Source of the DNA: Methyloversatilis sp.
Lineage (GTDB): Bacteria; Pseudomonadota; Gammaproteobacteria; Burkholderiales; Rhodocyclaceae
DNA: 37,210 nt
Direction of reading: 5' to 3'
NCBI RefSeq assembly: GCF_030698125.1
Contig: NZ_JAUYNV010000020.1
Span: forward strand, 1 to 37,210
The first letter of the stretch is position 1. Each line of letters begins with the position of its first letter. A program made the position numbers and the translations under genes. This document shows positions 36,605 to 37,058 of the stretch, piece after piece. Under the pieces are notes generated by a model. The model did no database searches. It was not told the origin of the DNA and saw only the letters and a list, made by a program, of their open reading frames with translations.

Positions 36605-37058
36605 TGGGGAACAGGGGCCAGGGGCTGGAGGGGCCGGGGCTGGATGAGCGAGGTGCGCAGCTATCGCGATTTGCTGGTCTGGCAACGAGCAATGGATCTC
36701 GCCCTTGCTGTCTATGCCCTGAGCCGGAGTTTCCTCGAGGGCGAGCGCTTCGCACTGGTGAGCCAGTTGCGACGCGCCGCTGTGTCGGTTCCTTCGAATA
36801 TCGCCGAAGGCCATGCAAGAAGCTCCACGCGTGATTTCCTGCGTTTTCTGTCGATCGCAGCCGGCTCTCTTGCCGAGATCGAAACCCAGCTCCTTCTCTC
36901 GCATCGCCTTGATTACGTGGATGCGCAACGAATGAACGTCACGCTGAAGGACGCCGATGAACTCGGCCGGAAGATCAGAGGTCTGCAAGCCTCCCTCTCG
37001 TCGCGCCTCGCGGACTCACCCTAGTCCCCAGCCCCTGTCCCCTGACTCCTGAATCCCC
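36605..37058. mobile_element. Candidate small element: inverted GC-rich arms around a four-helix-bundle gene
   Basis: AGGGGCCAGGGGCTGG (36613-36628) is the reverse complement of 37028-37043 with one mismatch in 16. The arms sit between the guaB stop and the guaA start and hold a single ORF. GGAGGG in the left arm (36627-36632) serves as ribosome-binding site for that ORF, and its stop codon lies at the inner edge of the right arm. Exact ends and any target duplication are not certain: GGGG/CCCC-rich tracts continue outward to 36605 and 37058. No transposase is present. Confidence 0.5.
36644..37024 (+). CDS. Four helix bundle protein, 23S rRNA intervening-sequence (S23) family
   Basis: 126 residues, all alpha-helical by appearance. 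Family signature residues are clear: [14 protein letters not shown] (6-19), [20 protein letters not shown] (32-51) with NIAEG (52-56), and [19 protein letters not shown] (65-83). The family (often annotated four helix bundle protein, related to the Avd protein of diversity-generating retroelements) was first seen as ORFs in 23S rRNA intervening sequences, but this copy is not in an rRNA gene and no reverse transcriptase is nearby. ATG 36644 follows GGAGGG by 11 nt; an in-frame upstream ATG at 36596 would translate the repeat arm ([16 protein letters not shown]) and is unlikely. Members form oligomeric bundles; biochemical function is unknown. It is inserted in the guaB-guaA operon. Confidence 0.9.

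Follow-up and report, generated by a model that had tools for sequence, protein, structure and literature searches.

What does a small gene of the S23 family do outside ribosomal RNA (rRNA), packed between two inverted repeats at the junction of two operon genes? The question is raised by the window analyzed here, 37,210 nucleotides (nt) of DNA from Methyloversatilis sp. (assembly GCF_030698125.1, contig NZ_JAUYNV010000020.1), in which one S23 open reading frame (ORF) separates genes that we take, from their protein sequences, to be guaB (IMP dehydrogenase) and guaA (GMP synthase). One part of the answer is secure: the locus belongs to an anatomical class in which an S23 gene stands between matched inverted arrays of 7- or 8-nt units. 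As to what the element is, we give about even weight to the reading that it is a dispersed element of the type known as intervening sequences (IVSs) of 23S rRNA, consisting of one S23 gene between inverted arrays of 7- or 8-nt units and accompanied by non-autonomous derivatives. Its parts and neighbors are as follows.

36644–37024, + strand: S23 ORF, 126 amino acids, ATG start; four-helix bundle, Avd-like fold (ORF list, profiles, predicted model)
36600–36643, + strand: left array of degenerate G-rich heptamers, GGGGCTG / GGGGCCA type (sequence; inverted pairs I4, I5, I8)
36612–36628, + strand: left-arm core, the best match, 94% complementary to 37028–37044 (inverted pair I5)
37019–37057, + strand: right array CCCCAGC CCCTGTC CCCTGAC TCCTGAA TCCC, inverted relative to the left array (sequence, inverted pairs)
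35139–36599, + strand: upstream gene, guaB (ORF; stop codon 36597–36599)
37060–37210, + strand: 5' part of guaA (ORF; ATG at 37060), extending past the window end

A previous reading made from the letters alone, hereafter the sequence-only reading, described 16-bp arms that are reverse complements of each other. The arms are real, at 17 nt each (36612–36628 and 37028–37044) with one mismatch, but they were undersized: these cores are sections of two longer degenerate heptamer arrays, G-rich on the left and C-rich on the right. The left array starts right after the guaB stop and is retained in the related genomes G001–G004 (G, C and L numbers are our handles for genomes, contigs and loci), and the right array overlaps the S23 stop codon and ends at the guaA ATG. 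S23 is the sole ORF between the arms in the ORF list and profile searches. Being purine-rich, the left array could act as the ribosome-binding site of S23, a role that fits the observation that left arrays are more purine-rich than right arrays in 40 of 51 loci with arrays on both sides. An inverted repeat of this score is ordinary in the GC-rich window (5 inverted versus 2 mirror-control pairs at a score of at least 28), and the significance of the locus rests on the heptamer pattern and the cross-genome comparison rather than on the inverted repeat by itself. Owing to the degeneracy of these arrays, a strict lag-7 array detector found almost nothing in the window or in contig C17 of the source genome. 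Array numbers were not taken from the general inverted-repeat scan of that contig, whose chance background was high.

Matched inverted arrays around S23 genes

The 150 nt preceding each S23 match were compared by alignment with the reverse-complemented 150 nt that follow it, with a threshold score of at least 28. In 80 named loci, the best 80 of at least 578 relatives as ranked by likeness to the window's S23 protein, this threshold is reached by 64, which come from many phyla. Control pairs shifted along the same DNA reach it in 2 of 410 cases and mismatched pairs of similar GC content in 25 of 640, the latter because some loci share units. Among neighboring ORFs that do not touch the element, 1 of 149 reaches the threshold; another 120 whose flanks touch an S23 element, one of them scoring at least 28, were excluded. 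In a second sample, drawn from loci found by profile in relatives and in members of the window's order (41 of 42 loci had a profile hit), the threshold is reached by 25 of 41 loci and by 1 of 237 controls; with the seven loci of the window's genus left aside, it is reached by 21 of 34. A unit length of 7 was found in 40 of the 80 loci and of 8 in 10, with lags of 4–6 and 9–12 in none and no clear period at that threshold in 30 (among 411 controls, 6 at lag 7 and 3 at each other lag, probably runs of N). That an ordinary small gene happens to lie within a chance inverted repeat, which might be supposed since the repeat is not outstanding within the window alone, is refuted by these unit lengths and by the counts in both samples and among neighboring genes, and we assign it next to no probability.

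The array unit varies between loci, yet it agrees between both arms of one element. The expectation of the sequence-only reading that one arm sequence would recur across loci was therefore not borne out; what is conserved is the form, that is, tandem 7- or 8-mers that are inverted and matched within the element. The idea that unit length is set by S23 lineage was rejected, as periods 7 and 8 form no clear clusters on the S23 tree. At two loci (L361 in G073 and L366 in G160), the S23 flanks carry far longer arms of CTAGGACGACG-type units with small hairpins between, and their period is neither 7 nor 8.

The source genome holds two PF05635 genes according to the profile search. The second lies between genes read as gmd and fcl (here, as with carA, carB, nirB, nirD, rpoB and rpoC below, the names are presumed from the protein sequences) and has inverted heptamer arrays, GATGCAAGATTCAAGGTGCAAGATGCAAG on the left and CTTGCATCTTGAATCTTGAATCTTGCATC on the right, whose unit differs from that of the guaB-guaA copy. 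Among the listed named genomes the closest is Methyloversatilis discipulorum (L085), with an S23 protein 98% identical.

The same arrangement occurs inside 23S rRNA. Ten loci outside the set of 80 were scanned with Rfam rRNA models, and two of them fall within 23S rRNA (RF02541): L373, whose genome also carries an identical copy of it (L374), and L392 of another genus. In both L373 and L392, inverted heptamer arrays stand on the two sides of the S23 gene (TCAGGAATCAGAGTTCAGGAATTAGGTATCAGA; CAGAGGACAGATGACAGAAGACAGAGGACAGAT). According to a study of the Coxiella IVS, tandem GACAGAT heptamers precede its S23 ORF and its ends form a 28-bp terminal stem that is cut by RNase III, and the origin of rRNA IVSs is there called unclear (PMC4990558). 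The guaB-guaA element likewise has an S23 ORF directly within inverted ends and is not inside 23S rRNA, which makes it an IVS-like element rather than an rRNA IVS. Judged from these sequences, the classical IVS is the same kind of element as the one between guaB and guaA.

The S23 protein and the probable joint movement of gene and arms

The ORF matches PF05635 at 126.8 bits (cut-off 33.8), over profile positions 1–105 of 106, and TIGR02436 at 122.7 (cut-off 24). Together with the predicted model, a bundle of four helices with a pLDDT (predicted local distance difference test) of 92.1, these scores above cut-off identify it as a member of the S23 / 23S_rRNA_IVP family. In a Foldseek search the model matched the solved S23 protein 2gsc (E 1.5e-8, template-modeling [TM] score 0.86), with 2rld as a further solved S23 match; both structures contain five chains. 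Remoter matches were Avd (4dwl, TM 0.76, E 0.033, 12% identity) and chains of the reverse-transcriptase (RT) complexes 8ub7, 8ubb and 8ube of diversity-generating retroelements (DGRs), at E 0.03–0.09. The NCBIfam Avd model gave the ORF 23.4 bits, below its cut-off of 80. Profile searches of the protein revealed no transposase-type domain and no recognizable nuclease or polymerase domain. The structure of 2gsc was solved in 2006, and S23 proteins are filed as conserved hypothetical proteins or proteins of unknown function. The statement of the sequence-only reading that their function outside rRNA is undescribed still fits the literature found on the family, in which one paper notes the likeness of PF05635 to Avd (PMC10053308).

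The ratio of nonsynonymous to synonymous substitution rates (dN/dS) is 0.07–0.17 in eight of nine pairs of intact S23 ORFs and 0.38 in the ninth (G001/G002), with dS saturated in four pairs. Taking just the six pairs of orthologues within the genus, five have values of 0.07–0.15 and the sixth has 0.38, and the four saturated pairs are among these six. To judge from these ratios, the S23 ORFs are under purifying selection. The tree of the 80 S23 loci mixes phyla, and many of its forks are weakly supported; 32 of the 80 entered a structure-based alignment, from which L119 and L150 were dropped for a stop codon and L114 was dropped too.

Do the arms travel with the gene? Among S23 pairs at least 65% identical and without detected homology of the outer flanks, arms are shared in 10 of 24, and the share falls to 6, 4 and 2% at identities of 55–65%, 45–55% and below (108 of 130 elements, with an arm score of at least 26; pairs are not independent and some lie within one genus). 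For L387 (G081) and L390 (G071), from different families, the alignment is confined to the element. L153 from Bipolaricaulota and L347 (G158) from the window's order have S23 proteins 73% identical and both use a GTGACGRGTGACG-type unit, L347 lying near a contig end with one of its outer flanks complete. Thus, the same unit is found at unrelated addresses, as in mobile elements, and the proposal of an arm-ORF-arm cassette was sound in that the same arms turn up beside S23 ORFs of unrelated loci. It is well supported by these comparisons that the arms and the S23 gene move as a unit.

Mismatches between the two arms show no G-U asymmetry (84 versus 97 in 87 loci with a score of at least 28, after removal of five near-duplicates from the genus). 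Nothing here points to selection on a sense RNA stem alone, and such selection was rejected as the sole cause of arm matching. For the same reason we lean towards a strand-symmetric DNA process as the way in which arrays are copied. Based on the sharing of arms with related S23 genes and on the array counts given below for two unit types, GTGAACGR and GTGATTRR, the best reading appears to be one in which the S23 protein has its own arrays as substrate. We envisage that the protein, with its Avd fold and, by analogy with its solved relatives, five chains, would bind its own array in single-stranded or hairpin-extruded form, and that it would promote both the copying of array pairs to new intergenic places and the re-matching of the two arms. 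The chemistry would be supplied by host replication or recombination functions, as S23 has no recognizable nuclease or polymerase domain of its own. ORF-less array pairs would be non-autonomous derivatives served in trans, and their preference for gene ends may mark where a hairpin is tolerated. The arms may also pair as a stem in rRNA and mRNA, as in the Coxiella IVS, whose stem RNase III cuts (PMC4990558).

An alternative route runs through RNA: the element's RNA, folded so that the ORF forms the loop of a stem, would be excised by RNase III, bound by S23 and copied into DNA by a resident RT, as Avd works with the RT of DGRs. The remote matches to Avd and to DGR RT complexes suit this route, as do the cutting of IVS RNA by RNase III (PMC4990558) and the orientation of S23, which is co-directional with its neighbors at guaB-guaA, at gmd-fcl and in 23S rRNA; in addition, the arms pair in the predicted RNA of the element (z -2.07). 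The absence of G-U asymmetry argues the other way, and some ORF-less copies apparently lie between convergent genes, where a read-through transcript is less certain. We regard this route as unlikely, though worth keeping in view.

Arrays without a gene and turnover at shared addresses

ORF-less arrays in the genus are found at the ends of genes, and most of them form inverted pairs separated by a short spacer. One is in the window itself:

1405–1501, strand not assigned: ORF-less element of inverted G-rich heptamer arms with a short GC hairpin inside, between genes read as carA and carB

CAAG-type pattern matches number 237 in G011, 111 in G007, 82 in G009, 31 in G000 and 1–27 in the other nine genomes of the genus, with a control of 0 in 13 of 13. 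G-rich matches number 38 in G004, 33 in G010, 32 in G001 and 26 in G005, against 0–11 elsewhere (controls 0–3, except 9 in G002, where one GGGGCTC run makes up 6 of 11 matches). All such counts are of overlapping pattern windows rather than of individual arrays, and the arms of the S23 elements themselves are counted in (11 of 41 matches in G149, below). So related species amplify different units. A profile search found S23 in 8 of the 13 genomes. Among single observations, the end of contig 21 in G007 (L253) stops within a run of about 19 CAAG-type units, which implies that arrays can grow long enough to break assemblies. A lone right-hand G-rich array stands between genes read as rpoB and rpoC in G000 (C56:8152-8171, L035); its 20-mer GGGGCTAGTGGCTAGGGGCT is listed for 10 of the 13 genomes, with the position read in G000.

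Might the arrays be products of polymerase slippage and quasi-palindrome template switching into which S23 genes simply happen to insert, the protein having nothing to do with them? Template switching is reported to create and maintain RNA hairpins (PMC8794818), and arrays do occur where no S23 gene was detected. Several results count against this explanation. Arms follow S23 lineage across genomes, and neighboring genes are not found inside such arrays (the 1 of 149 above). G081 carries four S23 genes (L386–L389), each with a different arm unit. Both array types searched for in 150 genomes abound just in genomes with a matching S23 gene, the arms having been read for part of the S23 genes there. 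Thus, the GTGAACGR-type pattern GTGAACGRGTGAACGRGTGAAC occurs 79 times in G081 and 21 times in G071, followed by 4, 3, 1, 1 and 144 zeros (reversed control: 0 in G081 and G071, 2 in G104, 6 in G148), and GTGATTRR occurs 63 times in G081, 41 in G149 and 40 in G105, the next value being 4 and the control 0 throughout. The expectation for GTGATTRR was recorded before the count; that for GTGAACGR was formed before and recorded after. G125, a congener of G081, has 0 and 2 matches, respectively. The reversed pattern that serves as control may itself be a heptamer unit, as in G102, G105, G108 and G002. On balance, a mere landing of S23 genes in ready-made arrays seems to us rather improbable.

The guaB-guaA junction can be followed through the genus, guaB being matched in 31 of 31 genomes searched, the source genome among them. 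In 5 of the 13 junctions read (G000–G004) there is an S23 gene, frameshifted in G003, with G-rich arms; six (G007–G012) have no ORF and hold a GATTCAAG-type inverted pair around a terminator-like hairpin; and two (G005, G006) have neither ORF nor arrays. The sequence-only reading had named an empty junction in close relatives as a supporting result, and the ORF is indeed absent in 8 of 13, but 6 of these 8 hold an inverted heptamer pair of another unit. Its proposal to map exact ends by comparing filled and empty sites failed, as neither insertion ends nor a target duplication could be mapped.

We also traced 13 array sites of G007 through the genus, three of them single arrays (L248, L258, L259). 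For 10 addresses, counting guaB-guaA, the reading covered one or more genomes of a group of four (G001, G004, G005 and G010). At four of these (guaB-guaA, nirB-nirD, L256, L258) at least two genomes of that group are G-rich where G007 is of CAAG type; at guaB-guaA, G010 is of CAAG type and G005 has nothing, and at L258 G005 again has nothing. At the other six addresses no array was seen in the genomes read from the group. The two arms tend to change together. The L254 site, for instance, has GATGCAA in some species and GGTGCAA or GGGGCAA in others, each time in both arms. Across 39 CAAG-type elements at nine of the 13 sites the mean arm fit is 32.2 within an element versus 26.6 between species (the sites and rows left aside had one arm or another array type). 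Counted by species pairs, which are not independent, 44 are for joint change, 16 against and 10 tied, and at two of the nine sites the means show no difference or the reverse.

These data bear on the possibility that the element is regulatory, S23 being an RNA-binding regulator and the arrays mRNA operators for processing or termination at operon junctions. The positions at guaB-guaA, nirB-nirD, carA-carB and rpoB-rpoC suit this idea, as do the several ORF-less pairs that enclose a hairpin. Set against it are the turnover of unit and presence at one address within a single genus, the same arrangement in 23S rRNA, and the fact that the named junctions belong to unrelated pathways. We consider a regulatory element quite improbable.

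Sequences at one address also appear to have been exchanged. Between G004 and G001, guaB is 96.0% identical and the element 73.6%, and the switch starts within the S23 ORF, the left arm and first codons being common to both. A changeover at such a point needs nothing more than homologous recombination between elements. For G000 and G004 the difference is 11% in guaB and 4% in the element, a contrast that is milder nearer the junction, where guaB and guaA are 89–94% identical. Two pairs from other genera, L379/L381 and L390/L391, combine homologous flanks with S23 genes that are not mutual nearest relatives. At site L249 the right arm is lost and followed by other DNA in G000, G003 and G009 (L326, L327, L329), and in G003 and G009 the DNA that follows holds the palindrome TTTAACTTACTGAGTAAATTTACTCAGTAAGTTAAA.

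Known systems and the reach of the interpretation

How far, then, can the proposal of a dispersed, IVS-type element be carried? A number of observations weigh against it. Movement was not observed, and elements mostly keep one address within the genus. No target duplication was found by eye at 14 addresses (guaB-guaA and the 13 G007 sites), element-free junctions exist yet no filled and empty pair among the sites read differs by insertion alone, and plain homologous recombination can account for the G004/G001 exchange. The arm threshold is missed by 16 of the 80 named and 16 of the 41 second-sample loci and is passed by the 25 of 640 mismatched pairs, and periods 7 and 8 do not cluster clearly on the S23 tree. 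Arrays occur without a detected S23 gene in G009, G012 and G008 (CAAG type) and in G005 (G-rich), and G010 has G-rich arrays while its sole S23 gene carries CAAG arms. For one common G-rich heptamer the link to S23 is weak: the gene is present in 5 of 9 array-rich genomes versus 28 of 141 others (p 0.025; array-rich means at least five matches, as in 9 of the 150 genomes). G-rich matches without a detected S23 gene reach 182 in G153, 62 in G102, 19 in G064 and 7 in G118, the control for the common heptamer being high in G102 (37) and G105 (28). The authors of the Coxiella study consider its S23 protein probably not expressed (PMC4990558), and Rehm et al. (2015) report that heptamer repeats are not generally associated with mobile elements (PMC4692102).

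Compared with rRNA IVSs, which are described from Leptospira, Coxiella, Xanthomonas and Brucella (PMC4990558), the guaB-guaA element shares the S23 ORF directly between ends made of inverted heptamer arrays, and differs in lying between protein genes of an operon, in having scattered ORF-less copies and in a unit that differs by locus. With Avd of DGRs it shares the fold described above. A DGR combines Avd with an RT, a template repeat and a variable repeat, none of which stands beside the S23 gene in the stretch read (no search for an RT elsewhere in the genome was made). Nor does it resemble a DNA transposon or insertion sequence, as the arms enclose no transposase of its own and no target duplication was seen by eye at the sites read. 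In the REP/RAYT system (repetitive extragenic palindromes with their associated tyrosine transposases) and in miniature inverted-repeat transposable elements (MITEs), a protein gene flanked by repeats thought to be mobilized by it is accompanied by many non-autonomous copies. The S23 elements differ from these in that the protein lacks a transposase-type domain and the ends are arrays of a unit of free sequence rather than a conserved palindrome.

Genome-wide heptamers of GGGNATC and GGGGA(C/T)T type were described in Xanthomonas and Nostoc by Rehm et al. (2015). As in our arrays, they are intergenic and near gene ends, keep their address while repeat number varies and, in Xanthomonas, form inverted (convergent) pairs, 70 and 75 in two genomes (PMC4692102). 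They were treated as G-quadruplex repeats, and S23 is mentioned 0 times in the accessible part of that paper, whereas the arrays described here are tied to a protein-coding element and to many other units. In the Nostoc trnL intron, the P6b stem has one of two heptamer classes (I or II) at each address, its sides pair, and shifts from one class to the other have occurred repeatedly; these repeats, unlike the S23 elements, lie within a group I intron, and S23 does not figure in the passages of that study (PMC4476775). A survey quoted in PMC4679880 found that in most of its prokaryotes no long simple repeats are commoner than those with heptanucleotide units, and slippage is the only cause proposed. 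In the portion of the open-access literature that was available, no paper was found that draws a connection between S23 genes and heptamer arrays outside of rRNA.

Our results suggest that one overlooked kind of spreading DNA element lies behind both rRNA IVSs and heptamer repeats. We go further only tentatively, holding at somewhat less than even weight that there is a general class of bacterial mobile elements that encode a single protein, an Avd-like four-helix bundle, and have ends set by form, as inverted matched arrays of 7- or 8-nt units of free sequence, and not by sequence, with each S23 protein spreading, homogenizing and re-matching its own unit in trans; such a class would account for rRNA IVSs and a large part of prokaryotic heptanucleotide repeats. 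This link joins S23 proteins, heptanucleotide repeats and rRNA IVSs and makes each testable: the protein gains a candidate substrate in its own array, the arrays gain a candidate agent, and IVSs would become one landing place of a widespread element. If true, the ends of the element would be set in an uncommon manner, by terminal repeats whose two sides keep matching each other although their sequence is free to vary.

A distinct dispersed inverted repeat, CGTAGGTTGGGGTGAGCGCAGCGATGCCCAACA, is also present in several copies (L165–L184; on C17 at, for example, 33534, 158879, 196856, 222924 and 275219). At site L250 in G000 and G003 (L300, L301), it occupies the address at which other species have a heptamer pair.
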